DNA from: Planctomycetaceae bacterium
GTDB lineage: Bacteria > Planctomycetota > Planctomycetia > Pirellulales > UBA7805
DNA length: 64,000 nt
Direction: 5' to 3'
Assembly: GCA_902630355.1 (NCBI GenBank)
Contig: CACOUL010000001.1
Location: 62,001-126,000 of the forward strand
Each line of letters starts with the position of its first letter. The first letter of the stretch is position 1. The notes beneath the pieces are model-generated. The model had not been told where the DNA came from, searched no databases, and was given only the letters and a program-made list of their open reading frames with translations. The translations under genes were made by a program, and so were the position numbers. This document shows positions 5,145 through 16,061 of the stretch, in pieces.

Positions 5145-5423
5145 GTGACAATTACGGTCTATTTCACGGCTCATCTCAAGGCGGCCGCTGGCAGTGCGCG
5201 TCAAACGCTCCCGTTGGAACCTGGCGGCACGCTCGCAGATTGCTTTAGCCTCGTGTGCGACCGCGCGAGTGATGCGCTTCGAACCTTGATCGTCGACGAG
5301 CGGGGAGAACTCCGCCCCTCGATCATCCTTTGCGTGAACGATGAGCAGACATCCCTGACCGACCCTACCCCACTAGCAGAGGATTCTGAAGTCACCTTCC
5401 TCGCTGCGATCAGTGGCGGGTGA
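5145..5423 (+). CDS. MoaD/ThiS-family ubiquitin-like sulfur carrier
   Basis: A 92-residue beta-grasp protein starting at a GTG. It begins with the ITVYFTAHLK strand, has the acidic loop and a VNDEQT turn, and ends exactly in Gly-Gly (SGG), the tail that an E1-like enzyme adenylates and that is then thiocarboxylated. In molybdopterin synthesis MoaD donates sulfur to precursor Z together with MoaE; ThiS and CysO relatives serve other pathways. The next gene is a HesA-type E1 enzyme seven bases downstream, and modABC follow, so a molybdenum-cofactor role is most likely. MoaE and MoaA are not in this window, so which pathway it serves is inferred. Confidence 0.82.
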   Translation: MTITVYFTAHLKAAAGSARQTLPLEPGGTLADCFSLVCDRASDALRTLIVDERGELRPSIILCVNDEQTSLTDPTPLAEDSEVTFLAAISGG

Positions 5424-5430
5424 ATCGACG

Positions 5431-6207
5431 ATGTCCGGAGAAGACCACGTGACCGAACACCGGCACCAATTAACGGACGAGGAACGGGCGACCTACGAAT
5501 GGCAAATGTGGGTTGACGGATTCGGTGAGCAGGGCCAGGAAAAACTAAAATCCGCAACCGTTCTGGTCTCCCGCGTTGGCGGTTTGGGCAGCGTGGTTGC
5601 CTATGAACTCGCAGCCGCCGGGGTGGGGCATTTGATCATCGCGCATGGCGGTAACATTAAACACAGCGACTTAAACCGCCAGCTCCTGATGACGCACGCG
5701 CGGCTCGGCACCTCGCGCGTTGCCTCCGCCGAGCAGCGACTGCACGATTTAAACCCCTCGATGAAAATCACGTCCTTTGCTGAAAATGTTTCTTCGGAAA
5801 ATATCGATCGGCTCGCGGCACAAGCGGATTGCATTGTGGACTGCGCACCGCTTTTTGAGGAACGATTTCTCATGAATCAAGCTGCAATAAGTCGAAACAT
5901 CCCACTTGTTGAGTGTGCGATGTTCGACTTAGAATTTCAGCTAACAACGATCATTCCCGGGCAAACGCCATGCCTTCGATGCCTCTATCCACAAGAGGTA
6001 CCTCATTGGACACGGCAATTCCCCGTATTCGGCGCTGTCTCGGCGACGGTTGGCGCAATGGGTGCGATGGAGGCGATCAAGGTGCTTTCCGGGTTGGATG
6101 CCCCCCTGTACGGTAAGATGCTCTGCGGCGATCTACGATTGATGAGATTTCGCACCCTCGCAATCAACAAAAACCCACAATGCGTTGCGTGCGGAACACC
6201 GGCTTGA
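5431..6207 (+). CDS. hesA: HesA/MoeB/ThiF-family E1-like adenylating enzyme, HesA type
   Basis: About 258 residues from the ATG at 5431 (a GTG at 5413, inside the MoaD-like gene, would add six residues; GGCGGGTGA precedes the ATG). The Rossmann nucleotide loop RVGGLGS is present, then AHGGNIKHSDLNRQ and VDCAPLFEERFLMN, which I recognise as the HesA version of motifs that in MoeB read DxD...SNLxRQ and DCTDN. Two CxxC pairs (CLRC and CVAC) should bind zinc. E1 enzymes of this family adenylate the C-terminal Gly of MoaD-like carriers, and one is encoded directly upstream. HesA proteins are known near nif genes and have been linked to molybdenum supply. Cytoplasmic. Confidence 0.85.
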   Translation: MSGEDHVTEHRHQLTDEERATYEWQMWVDGFGEQGQEKLKSATVLVSRVGGLGSVVAYELAAAGVGHLIIAHGGNIKHSDLNRQLLMTHARLGTSRVASAEQRLHDLNPSMKITSFAENVSSENIDRLAAQADCIVDCAPLFEERFLMNQAAISRNIPLVECAMFDLEFQLTTIIPGQTPCLRCLYPQEVPHWTRQFPVFGAVSATVGAMGAMEAIKVLSGLDAPLYGKMLCGDLRLMRFRTLAINKNPQCVACGTPA

Positions 6208-6279: not shown

Positions 6280-7884
6280 ATGAAATCAACCCTCTTACCG
6301 TTTCGCCGACTTTCGCTTTTATCTTTGTTCGTGGTCTCGGGTGTCGCGCTCAGCATTCTCTTTGCCTCATTATCGTGGCTCGCCCGAGAAACCGGTTCGA
6401 GTCGCGTCTTCGATGGGGACCAGTCAGAACCGATCACCGTATTTGCTGCGGCCGGCATGCGCTATCCCATCGACCAAATTGCTGATGCTTATACGGCAGA
6501 ATACGGGACACCGATTCAAATACAGTATGGCGGATCAAATACGATGCTCTCACAACTCGAGGTGGGGCAGGGGGCCGATCTCTATATCGCCGCCGATGAA
6601 CAATATGTCGATCTTGCCCGAAACAAAGGCCTCGTGAATGAAAGAATGGCGATCGCCTCGCAAATCCCGGTGATCGTAACACGCCGAGGCGGACCGCACG
6701 ATATTTCTGATGTTTCAGACCTTTACCAGCGCACGCTTCGTTACGCGATCGGCGATCCACACGCGGCGGCCATCGGAAAAAAAACAAAAGAGGCACTCTC
6801 TCAGGGCGACGCCTGGGCAAAGCTCGTCGAGGGCGCCACGGTCCTCAAACCGACAGTCAACGAGATCGCGACCGCTGTGAGTCTCGGAAGCGTCGATGCG
6901 GGCATCGTGTGGGACAGCACAGCCGCTCACTATCCGGAGCTCGCAATCATCCGCGACCCTCGCTTGAGTCGTGGCGTATCGGATGCCGAACTTGCAATCA
7001 CATCGACCACCAAAAACGCCACCGGGGCACTTCATTTTGCCCGATACCTCACCTCCGCTGATCGAGGACTGCCCGCGTTTCAACAGCACGGATTCACACC
7101 GATTCAGGGCGATGACTGGGAGGAAACACCTCAAATCACATTTTTTGCCGGGGCGGTCAATCGACGTGCTGTCGAACCGGCGATCGAGGCATTCGAAAAA
7201 CGCGAAGGCGTGAAGGTGAACACAATCTATAACGGATGCGGCATCCTTACCGCCCAAATGCGATCCCTGCACAATAACCAAGGAGACGGCTTCCCCGATT
7301 CCTTCATGGCGTGCGACGTGTATTACATGGATGCCGTTCAGGATCTCTTTATGTCACCGGTGAACATTTCGGACACCGACATTGTGCTGGTTGTGCCGAA
7401 GGGAAACCCGAAGAACATCGCGACCCTCAAGGACCTTATCCGGCCCGGCATCCGCGTTGCCATCGGTCAACCGCGCCAGTGTACGATCGGGACCCTGACG
7501 CGACGTCTGCTCGAAGATCAGAACCTAGAAGAGAGGTTACTCCAGAGCGACAACATTGTGACTGAAACAACGAGCAGCGCACTGCTGGTGCCGAACATCG
7601 TTACCGGATCGGCAGACGTGGCGGTCGCCTACCGAGTGGATGCACAGTCAGTTGCAGACCAGGTCGATATCGTGCCGATTGACTCACCCCTCGCTAAGGC
7701 GATCCAACCTTTTGGCATTTCGAAACAGAGCAGATCAAAACGACTCAACGCGCGACTTTTTGACGCCATCTCGGCTGCCAAAGGAAATTTCGTCGATCAA
7801 GGCTTTACCTGGCGACTCGTCGATGGCGAGCGTCCAGCAATCTCCGCACCGACGAAGACGGAACCGAAAGACAGTGAACCTTAG
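6280..7884 (+). CDS. modA: Molybdate-type ABC transporter binding protein with two tandem ModA-like domains
   Basis: 534 residues, about twice the usual ModA. An uncleaved-looking hydrophobic segment (residues 11-33) without a lipobox Cys suggests a membrane anchor or signal. Domain 1 (about 50-282) starts ITVFAAAGM and contains YGGSNTMLSQLEVGQGADLYIAADEQY. Domain 2 (about 285-515) starts ITFFAGAVNRR and contains NGCGILTAQM and DVYYMDAVQDLF. Both follow the ModA/SBP type II plan with a strand, a Ser/Gly-rich oxyanion loop and a hinge (VNEIATAVSLGSVDAGIVWD in the first, LLVPNIVTGSADVAVAYRVD in the second). The gene lies 72 bases after the E1 gene and is followed by ModB and ModC. It should deliver molybdate, tungstate or a related oxyanion; the ligand cannot be read from the sequence. 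Confidence 0.85.
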   Translation: MKSTLLPFRRLSLLSLFVVSGVALSILFASLSWLARETGSSRVFDGDQSEPITVFAAAGMRYPIDQIADAYTAEYGTPIQIQYGGSNTMLSQLEVGQGADLYIAADEQYVDLARNKGLVNERMAIASQIPVIVTRRGGPHDISDVSDLYQRTLRYAIGDPHAAAIGKKTKEALSQGDAWAKLVEGATVLKPTVNEIATAVSLGSVDAGIVWDSTAAHYPELAIIRDPRLSRGVSDAELAITSTTKNATGALHFARYLTSADRGLPAFQQHGFTPIQGDDWEETPQITFFAGAVNRRAVEPAIEAFEKREGVKVNTIYNGCGILTAQMRSLHNNQGDGFPDSFMACDVYYMDAVQDLFMSPVNISDTDIVLVVPKGNPKNIATLKDLIRPGIRVAIGQPRQCTIGTLTRRLLEDQNLEERLLQSDNIVTETTSSALLVPNIVTGSADVAVAYRVDAQSVADQVDIVPIDSPLAKAIQPFGISKQSRSKRLNARLFDAISAAKGNFVDQGFTWRLVDGERPAISAPTKTEPKDSEP

Positions 7885-7931
7885 TCCGCGCTCACCTGCC
7901 TGACACCTCGCTGGCCCGAGGATGCTTTTGC

Positions 7932-9350
7932 ATGTCTCAACCAAACCGACAGAATGAGTGGAAATCGCAGGGATCGGGCGATACTCTGTTCTTCCTCACG
8001 CTCGCAGTACTCGGCGGTACCTACGTGGTTCTCATTCTGCTTCTGCTTATAGCAGATATCGCATACCTTTTCCGCGCACCTATTCAGGAAGAGGTCGTCC
8101 TCGACTTTTTTCAGCGTCGAGACGTAGCTACGGCAGGCGACACGTCCCACTCGGGGGACTATCCGCAATACGCATTAACCATCTGTGCCGGGGAGGGAGA
8201 CCAAAAGCCCGTATTGTTCGATACGACCCGCCCTGAAAACTTCCCCGCGTGGGGAAGTCCCCACCGCGATTTCGGCGGCCCTGGTTCCGGATCAGGTGGT
8301 GGCAGGGCGACGCCACTTCCTAATAATCGCTCGCTCGGAAACATTCTCGTTCCCCCCGGAAACCCTCCCCCCTCGCCAGGCCGGATTCAACTTCATTGGG
8401 AGCAACCCGTCACGCTACGAAAGTTACTCTTTATGGCAGGCGACCGGCCAGTAGCCGTCACGCTTCGCGATCTGGCAGGAAAAGAAATCGCCCTCTCTTC
8501 TCAAGGTGGCAGCGGTCCGGGGTCAGTGCATCAAGTTGCCCCCGCAGCAGACCAGATTACCGATGCGGATATCGAATTTCCGCAAGGTGGCGGAATCGCC
8601 GAAGTTCGCTTTGCCTGGCCCGGAAGACTTCTCTCAAACTGGGAGGTTCGTTCCCCGTGGCTCAGTCGCCTCATCTACAATCCCGTGATCGACGCGCTGG
8701 CAAAGCCCGAGATTCAATACTCGCTTGCTCTCAGCCTGATTAGTTGTACGGTCACCGCCATCATTTCGCTTTGGATTGCCGTCCCACTTGGGTATCTACT
8801 CTCGCGTTTCTCCTTCGCTGGCAAAGGGTTTATTGACGCAATTCTCGATATTCCAATTGTGCTCCCACCCCTGGTGGTGGGACTAAGCTTACTCATCCTC
8901 TTTCAATTCATGCCCTCCAAATTCTCCTCACTGGTGGTTTACCAGGTCCCGGCGGTGATAATCGCGCAGGTCGCCGTCGCGTGCGCGTTTGCCGTGCGAA
9001 CGATGAAAGCCGCGTTTGATCAGATCGATCCACGCTGCGAGCAGGTCGCATTAACCCTCGGATGCAGTCGCGCAGCAGCCTTTTCTCGTGTGGTTCTGCC
9101 TGAAGCCGTCCCCGGCATGCTGACGGCCGGAACCCTTGCCTGGGCGCGCGCCCTCGGTGAATTTGGCCCACTTCTCATTTTCGCGGGGGCGACCAGAAAC
9201 AAAACCGAAGTGCTCTCGACTTCAGTATTTCTCGAGTTAAGCGTAGGCGATTTGGCGGCCGCCGTTTCGATTTCGCTCATCATGATTCTCGCTGCGGTCA
9301 TCGTCCTGGTCCTAACACGCCTCTGGGGAACCAAGACGATCTCGCTCTAA
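7932..9350 (+). CDS. modB: Molybdate-type ABC permease (ModB) with large extracytoplasmic insert
   Basis: 472 residues, about twice a standard ModB (~225). Residues 18-43 form a first membrane helix. Residues about 55-245 are hydrophilic, rich in Gly, Pro and Ser, with beta-like stretches, and should face the extracytoplasmic side. From about residue 255 onward it is an ordinary permease with five membrane segments and the EAA loop around LGCSRAAAFSRVVLPEAVPGMLTAGTLAW, which contacts the ATPase, followed by ARALGEFGPL. It lies 47 bases after modA and 20 before modC, so the three are one transcription unit. The family imports molybdate or tungstate. The insert is not a domain I recognise. Confidence 0.85.
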   Translation: MSQPNRQNEWKSQGSGDTLFFLTLAVLGGTYVVLILLLLIADIAYLFRAPIQEEVVLDFFQRRDVATAGDTSHSGDYPQYALTICAGEGDQKPVLFDTTRPENFPAWGSPHRDFGGPGSGSGGGRATPLPNNRSLGNILVPPGNPPPSPGRIQLHWEQPVTLRKLLFMAGDRPVAVTLRDLAGKEIALSSQGGSGPGSVHQVAPAADQITDADIEFPQGGGIAEVRFAWPGRLLSNWEVRSPWLSRLIYNPVIDALAKPEIQYSLALSLISCTVTAIISLWIAVPLGYLLSRFSFAGKGFIDAILDIPIVLPPLVVGLSLLILFQFMPSKFSSLVVYQVPAVIIAQVAVACAFAVRTMKAAFDQIDPRCEQVALTLGCSRAAAFSRVVLPEAVPGMLTAGTLAWARALGEFGPLLIFAGATRNKTEVLSTSVFLELSVGDLAAAVSISLIMILAAVIVLVLTRLWGTKTISL

Positions 9351-9370
9351 GTCAAAGCAACGCACACGAC

Positions 9371-10072
9371 ATGATTGAACTGAAAAATATTACCGTCTCC
9401 GCAGGCGATTTCACGCTCGCTGATATTTCTCTCACGGTCCCCACGGGTGCTTACGGCATCTTAATGGGAGCGACCGCCGCGGGAAAAACCACGTTGCTCG
9501 AATCGATCGCCGGACTTCAAACGGTGAGGGACGGCGCAATCCATCTGGGCGGAGCGGACGTCACCCAACTGCATCCTGCCGAACGTGATATTGGCTACCT
9601 GCCGCAGGATGGCGCTCTATTCTCAAAAATGAACGTTCGCGATCACCTTGCCTTCTCGCTTGAAGTCCGCGGCGCCGCGAAGGACACGATACGCGACCGG
9701 ATTGCCGAACTATCATCGTTACTCGGCATTGATTATCTACTCAACCGCGGAATCCGAGATTTAAGCGGCGGTGAAAAACAGCGCGTCGCGCTCGGCCGCG
9801 CATTATCTGCCCATCCAAGAACACTCCTGCTCGATGAGCCGCTCAGTGCACTCGACGAAATCACCCGTCAGCAAATGTACGACCTTCTCAAGAACATCCA
9901 AGCACGCATCGGTGTGACAACCCTTCACGTAACGCACCACATCATTGATGCTGAAAATCTCGGTGATACGTTCCTTTATTTGACCGGCGGACGCATACAG
10001 CAACTCGATCTTCCGTCGCTCCGCAACGAACTGAAAAACAAGGGCGGGGTCTCTCCCGCAAACGCCGACTAA
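9371..10072 (+). CDS. modC: ABC transporter ATPase, molybdate type (ModC-like)
   Basis: 233 residues. Walker A is GATAAGKTT with an unusual Ala-Ala in place of the common Ser-Gly pair, Q-loop GYLPQDGALF, signature LSGGEKQRVALGRAL, Walker B TLLLDEPLSALD, and H-loop HVTHH. Length and motifs fit the ModC nucleotide-binding domain, but the C-terminal molbindin (TOBE/MOP) domain of classical ModC (~350 residues) is absent, so feedback by oxyanion binding at that site is not expected. It powers the ModA/ModB pair encoded just upstream and acts on the cytoplasmic membrane face. The gene ends the Mo block; 57 bases separate it from the esterase gene. Confidence 0.88.
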   Translation: MIELKNITVSAGDFTLADISLTVPTGAYGILMGATAAGKTTLLESIAGLQTVRDGAIHLGGADVTQLHPAERDIGYLPQDGALFSKMNVRDHLAFSLEVRGAAKDTIRDRIAELSSLLGIDYLLNRGIRDLSGGEKQRVALGRALSAHPRTLLLDEPLSALDEITRQQMYDLLKNIQARIGVTTLHVTHHIIDAENLGDTFLYLTGGRIQQLDLPSLRNELKNKGGVSPANAD

Positions 10073-10129
10073 TTCGTATAGTTACGTTTCCGCAGAAACG
10101 CTCACTCGCGCCCAACAAGGGAAGGCACC

Positions 10130-11710
10130 ATGTGTCATTTATCACGTTGTTTTTTTAGCACCGCCTGCTTTATATTGTTTTTGTGCGCATCCGCCTCACT
10201 ACCCGCGGATGTTACGCTGCCGAATATCTTTGCCGACCACATGATCTTTCAGCGCGACCAGCCGATTCGCGTCTTCGGTCAAGCTTCGCCGGGTGAGTCG
10301 ATCACCGTCACATTTGCTGGCGAGTCGGGAAGCACAGAGGCTGCGGCGGATGGGCATTGGCGAGTGCAATTACCGGCGGTCGCGGCGGATCGCTCCGCCC
10401 GCACATTAACGGTTAAAGGCAACAACACTGTAACGTTCGAAGACATCCTGGTGGGTGACGTCTGGCTTTGTAGCGGACAATCAAATATGGAGTGGACCCT
10501 CACTAACACTTCCCGCGGCATCAAGGAAATTGCGGCAGCCAATTATCCCGAAGTGAGGCTCTTTAACGTCACCGGACACACGCAGAGTCGGACACCGAAA
10601 AATAACACGACCGGAACTTGGCACCGATGTACCCCAAAAAGCGTGCGCGGTTTCTCGGCAGTCGCATATTTCTTCGGCCGCACACTATATCGGGAATCGA
10701 ACGTCCCGGTCGGCCTGATTGGCACCAACTGGGGTGGCACCCGGATCGAACCTTGGATTCCTAAAGAAGGCTTTGAGGGGATCGAGGAACTCGGCCGATA
10801 CCGTAGCGGATTGGACCGCCTCGACCTGAAAACCCCTCACGGAAAATCAAACCATCGCGATTACCTCCGTCGTGTCGAAAGCTGGCTGGGCGACGCTCAG
10901 ACGAAAATCGACCAGGGAAATCATCCCGGATCACCTCCGTCACCGCCGAGTTTTAGCACCGTTGATGGAGCTACCACAATTTACAATTCCATGGTTCACG
11001 GGATCGCACCCTTCAGCGTGCGAGGTGCGATTTGGTACCAGGGCGAATCCAATGGCGAGGAGGGGGACAGCTACTATCACAAAATGCGGGCGCTGATCGC
11101 CGGCTGGCGTAAGGCGTTTGAAAACCCAAACCTGCTCTTTTATTTCGTCCAACTCGCGAACTGGCAGGCACCGACAGAGGATCCCGCCGGTGGCGACGGT
11201 TGGGCTGCCGTCCGCGATGCGCAGCGGAAGGCACTGAGCATTCCGCACACCGGAATGGCTGTGACCACCGACATCGGCGATGCAGGTGATATTCACCCGC
11301 GAAACAAGCAGGATGTGGGTGACCGGCTCGCCCAATGGGGGCTGCGGGACGTACACCAACGCGATGTGATCCCTTCCGGACCCCTTTTCAAATCGGCCAA
11401 GCAAGAGGGAGATTCGATCCGAATCACCTTCGATCACGTTGGCGATGGGTTGATGGCGGCAACGAAGGATGGTCTCAGTCCACCGCAAGAAGAACGCGAT
11501 GGCAAATTGCGCCGTTTTGCCATTGCCGGAGACGATCAAAACTGGGTTTGGGCCGATGCTGTCATTGATGGCCCGACTGTCGTTGTCTCCTCCCCGGAGG
11601 TGAAACATCCGGTGGCAGTCCGCTACGCCTATTCGATGAATCCCGAGGGCGCCAACCTCTATAACCGAGCCGGACTCCCGGCGTCCCCTTTCCGAACCGA
11701 TGCGTGGTAG
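10130..11710 (+). CDS. Exported sialate O-acetylesterase-like SGNH hydrolase
   Basis: 526 residues with a signal peptide (hydrophobic residues 9-22). The SGNH/GDSL-type family motifs are clear: CSGQSNMEW with nucleophile Ser118, IWYQGESN (the second conserved block) and DIHPRNKQDVGDRL carrying the catalytic Asp and His. The family removes acetyl esters from sialic acids or from plant and algal polysaccharides such as xylan or pectin; planctomycetes carry many copies. GGAAGG lies about six bases before the ATG. The preceding modC gene is unrelated in function and the spacing is 57 bases, so co-transcription is uncertain. The true substrate is not predictable here. Confidence 0.88.
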   Translation: MCHLSRCFFSTACFILFLCASASLPADVTLPNIFADHMIFQRDQPIRVFGQASPGESITVTFAGESGSTEAAADGHWRVQLPAVAADRSARTLTVKGNNTVTFEDILVGDVWLCSGQSNMEWTLTNTSRGIKEIAAANYPEVRLFNVTGHTQSRTPKNNTTGTWHRCTPKSVRGFSAVAYFFGRTLYRESNVPVGLIGTNWGGTRIEPWIPKEGFEGIEELGRYRSGLDRLDLKTPHGKSNHRDYLRRVESWLGDAQTKIDQGNHPGSPPSPPSFSTVDGATTIYNSMVHGIAPFSVRGAIWYQGESNGEEGDSYYHKMRALIAGWRKAFENPNLLFYFVQLANWQAPTEDPAGGDGWAAVRDAQRKALSIPHTGMAVTTDIGDAGDIHPRNKQDVGDRLAQWGLRDVHQRDVIPSGPLFKSAKQEGDSIRITFDHVGDGLMAATKDGLSPPQEERDGKLRRFAIAGDDQNWVWADAVIDGPTVVVSSPEVKHPVAVRYAYSMNPEGANLYNRAGLPASPFRTDAW

Positions 11711-11858
11711 CACAGGTTTGCGGCAATATTCACCCGAATAGGGGGCGAACTTGCCTGAATTTGCCCCCTTAGGTTATCTTGTAGGGCAGAATCGCAAGCG
11801 CGCCGGCGCTCACCGATCAAGTTTACCTTCCCACCTCGGCCGAATCAGAGGCACCTCC

Positions 11859-13193
11859 ATGACGATCCGCAATACATCACGACGAAAATTCATCCAATCG
11901 GGCGCGTTGGCCGCCGCCACTGTTCCATATTTTGCCTGGGCTCAAAAGTCCTTTGCCAACGACTCGGCAAATGATCGCCCTCGAATCGGATGCATTGGAA
12001 CGGGGAGCATGGGAACCTGGGATGCTCGCGACCACGCTAATTATGGCGACATTGTGGCGGTTTGCGATGTCGATACTCGGCATGCGGATCGCGCGAAACA
12101 CGATGAGAAGATCGGGAAGGGCAAAGCGGATACTTACCGGGACTATCGTGATGTTCTGGACAGAAATGACGTCGATATAGTCAGTATCGTCACCCCGGAT
12201 CATTGGCACACGAAAATTGCGATCGAGGCACTCCAGTCCGGCAAGGATGTGTTTTGCCAGAAACCCTTAACTCTGACGCTCGAAGAGAACAAACTGATCC
12301 GGGATGCCTGCCGAAAATACCCAGACCGCACGTTCTTTGTCGGCACCCAACAGAGGAGCAGTCGGCCCCTCTTTTTGCGTGCTGTGAACATGGTGCAGAA
12401 AGGGCTCCTCGGCGACATTAAGAAGGTTACAGTCGGAATCGATGGCGCCCCGACGGGCGGTCCATTCCCCACGGCGGAAGTACCCAAGGAACTCGATTGG
12501 GAGATGTGGCTCGGCCAGGCACCGATGGTCGACTACCGCGAGAAGCGATGCCACTATCAATTCCGTTGGTGGTACGAGTACTCGGGCGGCAAATTTACCG
12601 ACTGGGGTGCGCATCACGTCGATATTGCAACCTGGGCGCTCGGGCAGGATGGCGAGGGCATGGGCCCCGTGGAAATCGACGGGACGTCCGTCAAGCATCC
12701 GGTTCCCTACAAAGAAGGGTTTGCGGAGGTTGATCACTCCTACAACGCATCTCACGATTTCTCAATCCCCTGTCGTTTCGCGAATGGGACCGAAATGATC
12801 GTGACCAGCGCACCGCCGAACGGCGTATTGTTCGAAGGTACCAAAGGCCGGATGTTTGTGAATCGTGGCCGAATTTCCGGAAAGCCAATCGACGAAGATT
12901 GGGATGCCGGGCATTATGGACAAGACGATCTGGCACGACTGTATAAAGGCAAGCCGCACGAAGGCCACAAGCAGAATTTTTATCGCACCCTTCGGGAAGG
13001 CGGCCTGCCGGTTTCGGATGTGTACAGCCATCTCCAGGCGATGAATACGTGTCACCTTTGCACCATTGCGGCGCGAACTGGCAAGAAAATCAAATGGGAT
13101 CCCAAGACCGAACAGATCATGGGCGACGATCATGCTCAATCGTTCGCATCGCGCACCCCACGTGCCGGATACGAGATTCCGCGAGTCGGTTGA
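11859..13193 (+). CDS. Tat-exported Gfo/Idh/MocA-family oxidoreductase
   Basis: About 444 residues from the ATG at 11859, chosen because AGAGG lies upstream and because SRRKFIQSG then forms a proper Tat leader; the frame is open to 11751. The NAD(P)-binding Rossmann motif is IGCIGTGSMG with the acidic end VCDVD. The Gfo/Idh/MocA signature EALQSGKDVFCQKPLTLT contains the conserved Lys, and WGAHHVDIATWALG holds the active-site His region. Such Tat-exported members carry tightly bound cofactor and oxidise or reduce sugars or cyclitols outside the cytoplasm. It follows the acetylesterase in the same direction, consistent with glycan breakdown. The particular sugar is unknown. Confidence 0.88.
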   Translation: MTIRNTSRRKFIQSGALAAATVPYFAWAQKSFANDSANDRPRIGCIGTGSMGTWDARDHANYGDIVAVCDVDTRHADRAKHDEKIGKGKADTYRDYRDVLDRNDVDIVSIVTPDHWHTKIAIEALQSGKDVFCQKPLTLTLEENKLIRDACRKYPDRTFFVGTQQRSSRPLFLRAVNMVQKGLLGDIKKVTVGIDGAPTGGPFPTAEVPKELDWEMWLGQAPMVDYREKRCHYQFRWWYEYSGGKFTDWGAHHVDIATWALGQDGEGMGPVEIDGTSVKHPVPYKEGFAEVDHSYNASHDFSIPCRFANGTEMIVTSAPPNGVLFEGTKGRMFVNRGRISGKPIDEDWDAGHYGQDDLARLYKGKPHEGHKQNFYRTLREGGLPVSDVYSHLQAMNTCHLCTIAARTGKKIKWDPKTEQIMGDDHAQSFASRTPRAGYEIPRVG

Positions 13194-13266
13194 CCCTGAG
13201 TGTAATTCGACAATTTTGCCAATAGTTCCGCTTCTCAGCCCCGCGCATTTGAGATAAAACACTCAC

Positions 13267-14289
13267 ATGCACGAGGACCAAAGTGGAAAACTTCCTCCCG
13301 GACAACAACTGTTGCGACCGGGCCGCTGGCCCACGGTGGGCGAGAAGCCACCTGAAGGTCCGTTTGATCGCTGGACCCTGAGCGTGCGGGGTTGTGTCAC
13401 TCAGCCCAAAACACTATCGCTTGAGCAACTTCTCGCCGAGCCACATGAAGAGCAAGCGATTGATATCCATTGCGTGACTCGCTGGTCGCGGCTCGGTGTT
13501 CCGTTTACGGGAATTCCCCTGGCGCGTTTCCTCTCCCCCGAAGCACTCACCGCCGATGCAAAGTTTGTTTCGTTTGTCGCGCGCAGCGATCGAGGCCACT
13601 CCAGTAGCGTGACCCTCGAGGTAGCGAGAATGTCTCTTCTCGCCTTGTATGCTGAAGGCAAGCCGCTGGCAATCGAATATGGCGGACCGGTGCGGGTCAT
13701 CGTTCCCGGACGCTATTTTTATAAAAGCGTCAAGTGGCTCGAGGCGATCGAAGTACTCTCCGAAGATCAACTCGGATACTGGGAACGCGACGCCGGATAC
13801 CACAACAACGCCGATCCCTGGCAGGAGGAGCGATATCTTGCCAGCGGGATCACCAAACAGCAAGCCAACCGGCTGATTGCCGATCGGGACTTCTCCAGGC
13901 AGGACTTGATGGGGATCGATGCCTCTCACAGACACCTCGAACGCCTCAAAGCCAAGGACGCACTTTTAAGAAACGCGAATTTCACCGGGTCTCAATTAGT
14001 GGAGGCCTGTTTCGATGGCGCTAATCTCGCCAACGCGTGTTTTCGCCGCGCTGACCTGAGTGGCGCCAGTTTTATCGGTGCGGATCTCGAGGGGGCAAAC
14101 CTCGTGGGGGCTAACTTAGCGGGTGCTGACTTAACTGGTGCCTCTCTCTTTGGGGCCGATTTTATCTCTCTCGACGATCGCCAGGAACATGCGACGCTCG
14201 ATGAAAATACCAAGTTATCGGCCAGTCAGATCACTCTGCTCGCCGACCACCAGGAAGCTTTCCTCAAAGACAAGACCACGATGCCATGA
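13267..14289 (+). CDS. Sulfite-oxidase-fold molybdopterin enzyme fused to pentapeptide repeats
   Basis: 340 residues. The first ~200 match the oxidoreductase molybdopterin-binding domain of the sulfite oxidase/YedY group: RWTLSVRG, then [21 protein letters not shown] with C69 as the expected Mo ligand, and [19 protein letters not shown] towards the end of the domain. From about residue 230 to 300 runs a pentapeptide-repeat helix (units such as [25 protein letters not shown]). There is no Tat or Sec leader, unlike YedY/MsrP, so it should act in the cytoplasm. Its ATGA overlap with the PLP enzyme gene shows close coupling. Likely substrates are sulfur oxides or sulfoxides, but none can be assigned. 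Confidence 0.85.
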
Positions 14290-16061
14290 AGACACCCGAG
14301 ATCTCCGATGCTCAGCGGCGGCTTTCTCCGCGACGCAATTCGTCCGAAGCCAATAATCTTGAGGGCCTGGTTGCCGAGCAGCTCGCGCACTTTTCCATCC
14401 AGCGCAATACCCCGTTCGGCGACCATCTCGCAGCGATTGCAATGCATCTTTACCAAGGCCAGCAGAGCGTGGAGTCGCTTTGGGAGACAACGCTTGCGGA
14501 AATGTCAGAACTCAATTCAAGCGACCGGATCGCCCGTTTCAATGCACTCAAATTCCTGTCTTTTCAGCTGGCGAAAATCCTGGACTCCGTCCAATCTCCG
14601 TTTCGACGATCCTATCAGTCCCTCAACATGAGTGCGGCGACAAAAACGGCTAAGGGCCCGTATCCGATCATCGACAACGTTACGGCGCTGTTCTCCGCCA
14701 CGCCGGTGATTTCCAGAACGGCGACCTATATATACGCCTGCGCCGAATGGATCGAGGACGCTTTCGTCGGCAAAGAGCCGATGCTAGAAATCTACTCGCG
14801 CCTGCTCAATCCCACGAGCATCTCGCTCGCAAATTACATTATCGACTTGGAGACGGATGCCGATGCGACCGACTACCTAGCCTGGAACTACAGCAGCGGC
14901 ATGGCCGCGATCGATGCGACGCTTTCCCATCTGCTCGGCCGCGATGACATCCTGATAACGAGTCGCAATATCTACGGGGGTGCACATCAATTAATACACG
15001 ATTGGTTTGCAAAACCCGGCAACCTTGCGGTTGCAGTCGAAACATTTGACGGTTTCACGGCAGCGGACTTTACGCAGTGTTACGAACAAGCCCTCGATAA
15101 ATACGCCGATCGCGTTGTGCAGGGTCGCCGGATTTACCTCTACCTTGAGTCACCGTGCAATCCTCACGGATACGTCCTCGACGTCCCGGCAATCTGCAAG
15201 GCGGCCCACGACCGCGGCGTCCGCGTCATGCTCGACGCCACCGTCGGCACACCATTCCTTCATCGGCCACTCGCTCACCCGAAACCGGACCATCGTCCCG
15301 ATTTCTTGATCCATAGCTACACAAAAGACCTTTCGGGATCGGGAAGTGTGATCGCAGGCTGCGTTATCGGACGCAACGAAGACATGTTTCTCCCGAAGGG
15401 CTTTGATGACGGCACGCGTAAATGGAGCGACACAATGTTCTGGAATGTCTATTACGTCAAAGGCGCGTTCCTGAGTGCCGATGCCGCGTTTGAGGTGATC
15501 CAGGGAATTCGCACCCTCGATGTCCGCATGCTTCGAAAATGCATTAATACGATCGTGCTAGCCCGGTATTTAGACGCACATCCCGCTATCACGGTCCAAT
15601 CCAACGCACTTCGTGCCAACGACAATCATGCGCTCGTCTCAAAGTTATCTTATCTGGGACTCTCCGCACCGCTCTTTACAATTGACCTGGGCAACCTTCC
15701 CCGCAGTTGTTTCCAGCGGTTTTTCGATTCGCTCTCACCGGTGTTCAGTCACATGATTAGCCTCGGTCAGTCCAACACGATCGTCAGCTGCCCATCCTTG
15801 ACCACACACTCGGAACTCGATGAGGCCGCCCTTCGGGATGCAGGCCTGACACCAACGACGATCCGCTTTTCGATTGGTGATGAAGACCCGCTCGATCTGA
15901 TTGCACACCTCAAGGCGACGGCCCATGCGACCATCGATGCGCATGTACCCGGATTCAGCGACCAGTTCCTCGATGAGGCAGCAACTGCAGACCTCGTTCG
16001 CAATTGTTACCTCGCAACGCACGAGTCGTTCATCGAGAACCGCTTGGATTGTCTGGTGTAA
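14286..16061 (+). CDS. Cys/Met-metabolism PLP-dependent enzyme with N-terminal extension
   Basis: 591 residues versus about 400 in cystathionine gamma-synthase/lyase and O-acetylhomoserine sulfhydrylase. From about residue 140 the fold-type I pattern is clear: YSRLLNPTSISL, WNYSSGMAAIDATL, the loop RNIYGGAHQLI, ESPCNPHG, VMLDATVGTPF, and SYTKDLSGSGS with the Schiff-base Lys. The first ~130 residues are helical-looking and unmatched. The final 30 residues also extend beyond the core. It starts inside the stop codon of the molybdoenzyme gene (ATGA), so the two products are probably made together. A C-S bond-forming or -breaking reaction is expected; the precise substrate is unknown. Confidence 0.83.
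   Translation: MKTPEISDAQRRLSPRRNSSEANNLEGLVAEQLAHFSIQRNTPFGDHLAAIAMHLYQGQQSVESLWETTLAEMSELNSSDRIARFNALKFLSFQLAKILDSVQSPFRRSYQSLNMSAATKTAKGPYPIIDNVTALFSATPVISRTATYIYACAEWIEDAFVGKEPMLEIYSRLLNPTSISLANYIIDLETDADATDYLAWNYSSGMAAIDATLSHLLGRDDILITSRNIYGGAHQLIHDWFAKPGNLAVAVETFDGFTAADFTQCYEQALDKYADRVVQGRRIYLYLESPCNPHGYVLDVPAICKAAHDRGVRVMLDATVGTPFLHRPLAHPKPDHRPDFLIHSYTKDLSGSGSVIAGCVIGRNEDMFLPKGFDDGTRKWSDTMFWNVYYVKGAFLSADAAFEVIQGIRTLDVRMLRKCINTIVLARYLDAHPAITVQSNALRANDNHALVSKLSYLGLSAPLFTIDLGNLPRSCFQRFFDSLSPVFSHMISLGQSNTIVSCPSLTTHSELDEAALRDAGLTPTTIRFSIGDEDPLDLIAHLKATAHATIDAHVPGFSDQFLDEAATADLVRNCYLATHESFIENRLDCLV

Follow-up and report, generated by a model that had tools for sequence, protein, structure and literature searches.

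Sulfite oxidases carry an Arg-Asn-His motif. Discussion of pentapeptide helices usually treats them as modules for binding or mimicry. Within the sulfite oxidase (SO) family, subgroup 3 has been described in a review as "uncharacterized, single-subunit, cytoplasmic" enzymes of environmental bacteria and archaea (PMC7759655). The Mo-ligand Cys of the family is missing from PruR proteins, which are exported or periplasmic (PMC13259868). The gene considered here comes from a planctomycete MAG (2.56 Mb, 70.5% complete) and joins a SUOX domain to a pentapeptide-repeat (PPR) β-helix; it lies in a stretch of 64,000 nucleotides (herein the window), and its features are as follows.

13255..13257, + strand: in-frame TAA stop, 12 bp upstream of the start codon; the ATG at 13267 is the first start after it
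13267..14289, + strand: SUOX-PPR fusion gene, an ORF of 340 aa from the ATG at 13267 to a stop ending at 14289 (Pfam; homologues)
13363..13782, + strand: SUOX domain (Oxidored_molyb, PF00174), residues 33-172 (Pfam 106.5 bits against a cut-off of 24; fold match)
13471..13473, + strand: codon of Cys69, the predicted Mo ligand, in HCVTRW (83/83 fusions, 22/22 SUOX-only proteins)
13591..13599, + strand: R109-G110-H111, fusion-specific loop of the SUOX domain (H111 in 83/83 fusions; Y/W/F in SUOX-only proteins)
13798..13800, + strand: codon of Tyr178 (profile alignment to the sulfite oxidase active-site Tyr; chicken Y322, Starkeya SorA Y236)
13882..14166, + strand: PPR β-helix, residues 206-300, 19 pentapeptides in about 4.75 coils (Pfam, AlphaFold2, length)
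13969..14154, + strand: conserved outer stripe on helix face 1, comprising R235, N253, S/A255, D273, E275, G276 and G296 (entropy)

Distribution and reading frame of the fusion

A homologue search of 84,980 species genomes left 80 loci, about 65 of which encode the full-length fusion; the remainder align only over residues ~1-190. Among 58 related genomes searched, the fusion is present in 21, its own genome included. Besides Planctomycetota, at least six more phyla include carriers (Acidobacteriota, Acidimicrobiia, Chloroflexota, Myxococcota, Zixibacteria, Tectomicrobia and, by label, a few Pseudomonadota records), although single taxon labels may be wrong because many of the carriers are MAGs. 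Identity to congeners is lowest at codon position 3 in both the SUOX and PPR halves; for the PPR half compared with the homologous locus L033, identities at positions 1, 2 and 3 are 0.66, 0.79 and 0.38, a constraint-like pattern. The original prediction had allowed that the PPR part might arise from a misplaced stop. As the fusion recurs in many genomes and its PPR half is under coding constraint, that alternative is refuted, and a chimeric assembly is ruled out on the same grounds. Our literature search for a SUOX and PPR fusion found no relevant paper; the fusion is genuine, conserved and, as far as searched, apparently new to the literature.

The in-frame TAA makes an N-terminal Tat extension impossible, and homologues begin at the same LPPGQ motif as the 340-aa protein, so a lost Tat signal or a wrongly placed start is excluded. 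The absence of a Tat signal had been predicted from the window, as had the intact Mo-ligand Cys69 motif and a C-terminal repeat helix, and all three hold; the profile search proposed for the domain pair places both Oxidored_molyb and Pentapeptide far over their cut-offs. A contrast drawn with periplasmic MsrP was misplaced, since the closest relatives are signal-less, single-domain SUOX-only proteins of about 190-220 aa with 38-47% identity. Judged from its sequence, the fusion protein is a real and conserved entity, a predicted cytoplasmic small molybdenum-enzyme domain followed by a short repeat rod of near-constant length.

The SUOX domain among its relatives

Membership of PF00174 is indicated both by the Pfam score and by the fold: the best PDB match of the SUOX part is MsrP/YedY (1xdy; Foldseek E 4.9e-14, 28-30% identity over 174 columns), and other sulfite oxidases match as well. 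C69, V70, T71 and W73 are retained in 83/83 fused homologues, and CVTxW is also invariant in 22 SUOX-only relatives. Y178 is present in 83/83 fusions and 21/22 SUOX-only proteins. In independent profile alignments it falls on residue 236 of Starkeya SorA and residue 322 of chicken sulfite oxidase, the latter being the residue at which the match to the chicken enzyme ends; the PDB lists Y236F and Y322F mutants of sulfite oxidases. By alignment, then, Y178 occupies the place of the active-site Tyr of sulfite-oxidising enzymes (SorA/SorT/SoxC), a new feature that is absent from MsrP.

Each described relative shares part of this picture. MsrP/YedY offers the closest solved fold (1xdy/1xdq) and a Cys at the same position, but it has a Tat signal, CVEAW in place of CVTRW and, in E. 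coli, Phe in place of Tyr178. The NCBIfam equivalog score for MsrP is 74.1 bits against a cut-off of 207, and the protein's own genome (70% complete) has no PF01794 match that would indicate an MsrQ-type gene. With the sulfite oxidases and dehydrogenases (SorA, SorT, chicken SO) the fusion shares the fold, the Mo-ligand Cys and the Tyr, but it lacks their Mo-co dimerisation domain (Pfam scan), heme domain or partner, and signal; Pfam finds no domain in it besides Oxidored_molyb and PPR, and hence no heme domain. Scores for SorA, SorT and SoxC (42.1, 31.4 and 27.8 bits) are far from their equivalog cut-offs of 420-600, and the Arg-Asn-His motif was looked for in the fusion protein and not seen. 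The pocket residues of the family are neither those of MsrP nor those of a canonical sulfite oxidase.

The fusions and their SUOX-only relatives fit subgroup 3 by its description (PMC7759655; the review gives no sequences), with a single predicted Mo subunit, no export signal and no heme. Since that subgroup is described as cytoplasmic, the missing Tat signal is the expected state and no surprise. Indirect signs of a bound Mo-pyranopterin are MoaA, encoded in the same genome, and the MoeB-like and ModABC genes close by. The small Mo domain of the SUOX-only relatives shares CVTxWS, KSxKW and GYHNxADPWxEER with the fusions; the SUOX-only proteins end at the last of these motifs, beyond which the fusion continues into its PPR helix. 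Fused SUOX domains also have a signature of their own, not previously described: R109, H111 and Y152 (replacing W), to which S114 can be added. Because this signature tracks the fusion, it suggests that the arm affects the catalytic part.

In a tree, fusions and SUOX-only proteins fall on the two sides of one branch, that is, one change (SH-aLRT 86, by a quick method and with the root unsure). In none of the 58 related genomes were both forms detected (21 and 7 genomes; Fisher p = 0.034), which is consistent with alternative forms of one enzyme; in a wider phylum sample, with seven candidates per genome scored, the exclusion is not significant (0 of 7, p = 0.24).

The genome holds a second PF00174 ORF (L176; G000 contig C19, around 8200-8700) that reads QIQDVSRVD, with no Cys at the Mo-ligand position and no obvious signal. 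From its sequence, the product may bind pterin in the cytosol, in contrast to the exported PruR type.

The pentapeptide-repeat arm

The repeat scores 64.7 bits against PF00805 (cut-off 20.2). An AlphaFold2 model built with 56 aligned homologues has the SUOX domain followed by a regular β-helix from ~207 to 298; the mean pLDDT is 92.5, and a pTM of 0.75 beside it means that the model does not fix with confidence how the two domains lie to each other. Foldseek matches the PPR part to the structures of HetL, 2f3l and NP275. It shares a right-handed quadrilateral β-helix with the stand-alone PPR proteins HetL, NP275 and Alr5209, but here the helix forms an arm of near-constant length on an enzyme, and one of its outer faces is strongly conserved. 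The distance from the junction to the last coil is exactly 109 aa in 65/76 fusions, 111-114 in ten and 127 in one.

Outer positions of the helix were ranked by entropy in a sequence set filtered to under 70% identity. Conservation is far stronger on one face than on the other three, a feature not described before: face 1 (centres 214, 234, 254, 274 and 294) has a mean entropy of 1.19 bits, compared with 2.38, 2.47 and 2.18 (Mann-Whitney p = 2.6e-5). R/K235, N253, S/T255, D273, E275 and G276 are kept across phyla. Face 3 is also Leu-centred yet unconserved, so Leu packing alone cannot account for the conservation of face 1. The top inter-domain covariation in 72 related sequences, confounded by phylogeny, includes the pairs R72-R235, R72-N256 and G177-N256. 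We infer that face 1 serves as an interface, which may lie close to the Mo site, and the idea of a "binding arm" in the original prediction is a sensible one.

Gene neighbourhood and candidate function

The following genes of the window flank the fusion.

5413..6207, + strand: MoeB/ThiF-type adenylyltransferase (Pfam ThiF; same block in three related genomes)
6280..10072, + strand: molybdate-type ABC transporter genes (profile matches; genus-level synteny)
6280-7884, + strand: double ModA-like binding protein, two tandem solute-binding domains in one chain (two PF13531 stretches)
7932-9350, + strand: ModB permease, 472 aa, with an N-terminal extension of ~240 aa before the transport domain that is kept in the genus
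9371-10072, + strand: ModC, within the molybdate-type ABC transporter genes
10130-11710, + strand: SASA esterase, between modC and the fusion gene, short gaps (Pfam)
11751-13193, + strand: Gfo/Idh oxidoreductase, start uncertain, between modC and the fusion gene, short gaps (Pfam)
14286..16061, + strand: PLP enzyme of the Cys/Met metabolism family (PF01053), 591 aa, overlapping the fusion gene by 4 bp (ATGA; Pfam)

The block from moeB through modABC, the SASA and Gfo genes and the fusion to the PLP gene is kept in three related genomes of the genus and not outside it. The 3.2 kb between modC and the fusion gene (10072 to 13267) had been pointed out in the original prediction; the distance is correct, but the arrangement is a genus-level one, and the PLP gene directly overlapping the fusion had been overlooked. 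A scan for a single moeB-to-PLP operon found promoter-like sites at chance, terminator-like sites above chance and no clear operon boundary.

By sequence the PLP enzyme is closest to O-acetylhomoserine sulfhydrylases and methionine gamma-lyases. It shares with the former the fold, the Lys, Tyr, Arg and Asp landmarks of the PLP site and the YGG motif, but differs in having long extensions at both the N and the C terminus of its 591 aa, and it reaches no NCBIfam equivalog cut-off. Proteins of this family (about 590-630 aa, with a long N-terminal extension and no curated NCBIfam equivalog) are common in Pirellulales; we presume a possible relationship to fungal Yll058w-type homocysteine synthases. 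This homocysteine-synthase-like gene adjoins the fusion in 20 loci, a new observation, and is its only recurrent immediate neighbour, in several gene contexts and once divergently (L046). The adjacency is lineage-bound: no PLP gene lies close to most fusion loci, several genomes carry it in the absence of the fusion, and genome-wide association is not enriched (8 of 58 genomes with both, p = 0.57).

Around the fusion loci we found no conserved redox-partner operon, the neighbours being housekeeping or lineage-bound; PADLOC returned no match to a defence system, and phage families gave generic matches only. Where the PLP gene is missing, the fusion often (L161, L169, L171, L174, L175 and L059) lies near an apparent MtdB-type methylene-tetrahydromethanopterin dehydrogenase gene and an ATP-grasp gene (C1 metabolism; by eye). 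In Acidimicrobiia (L086, L088, L090 and L093) the gene order is conserved, with the fusion flanked by a LytR-type gene and trpS, both named by eye.

By enzyme class the fusion protein is likely a two-electron oxidoreductase that works in the cytosol with a molybdenum cofactor; it would be a member of the small subgroup 3 to which one lineage added a C-terminal PPR β-helix. The SUOX domain would bind the cofactor with Mo on Cys69, as its conservation suggests, and the helix sits where classic sulfite oxidases carry their dimerisation domain. The arm is best read as a fixed docking or active-site-shaping element, a rod of ~4.75 coils whose conserved face would dock on a constant partner. Most likely it would bind close to the Mo site, on the protein's own SUOX domain or on another copy of the protein, where it would shape or cover the substrate pocket; a separate redox partner appears less likely. 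The match of Tyr178 to the sulfite oxidase Tyr, together with the recurrent homocysteine-synthase-like neighbour, points to a small sulfur oxyanion or S-oxide in the cytoplasm as the probable substrate. We consider this reading as a whole, a subgroup 3 oxidoreductase with a docking arm and such a substrate, to be somewhat probable. A stronger version may be possible, though we would not expect it to be right: a distinct class of cytosolic molybdoenzyme in which the charged face (R235, N253, D273 and E275) comes to lie over the Mo site by docking, within one molecule or across a dimer, together with the fusion-only R109/H111 loop. The helix would then be part of the active site or its gating, which, if true, is an unusual role for a pentapeptide repeat.

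A plainer account, unlikely yet with an appreciable chance of being correct, is that the PPR is an ordinary tail, which lends a standard group-3 enzyme stability or a means of dimerising and no further function. The position of the helix in place of the sulfite oxidase dimerisation domain and its nearly constant length are as such a tail would have them, and in other genomes the same role seems to be taken by SUOX-only forms; the changes at R109, H111 and Y152 inside the SUOX domain, which track with the fusion, argue against it. Docking on a separate protein, either an electron donor or acceptor or the PLP enzyme itself, would instead turn the fusion into an enzyme for channelling or scaffolding in the synthesis of sulfur amino acids. 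The 4-bp overlap, the 20 loci with differing flanks (one divergent), the retained landmarks and sulfhydrylase-like YGG of the PLP enzyme, and the conservation of face 1 all suit this account; we nevertheless judge it improbable, for the PLP gene is absent near most fusion loci, occurs alone in several genomes and co-occurs at chance, and face 1 is equally conserved in phyla where no PLP neighbour is seen.

Two further accounts seem very improbable. In one, the SUOX domain is a non-enzymatic, PruR-like pterin sensor and the helix its signalling output: PF00174 is common to PruR-type pterin-binding proteins, whose fold is matched (7kos), and a domain with a repeat arm resembles a sensor-effector layout, but PruR is exported and lacks the Mo-ligand Cys (PMC13259868), whereas Cys69 is present in 105/105 sequences and there is no export signal. 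Scarcely credible, finally, is a DNA-mimic, gyrase-binding or toxin-immunity module (Qnr/MfpA-like) fused by chance. Over the repeat, NCBIfam gives weak matches to Qnr, MfpA and HetL that all fall well short of their cut-offs, and the PPR part of the planctomycete examples is mostly acidic (pI about 5); yet the best Qnr/MfpA score is 30.7 bits against cut-offs of 240-500, there are only about 4.75 coils, the charge is unconserved (pI 9.5 for everything past the junction in L083), and no resistance or topoisomerase context was seen.

Although widespread, subgroup 3 of the SO family is described as uncharacterised. The fusion constitutes a well-defined subfamily of it whose residues can be tested (C69, Y178, R109/H111 and the R235-N253-D273-E275 face) and which has a candidate metabolic neighbour; this could open the substrate question. 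A PPR helix of near-constant length that forms part of an enzyme in several phyla would show functional coupling clearly.
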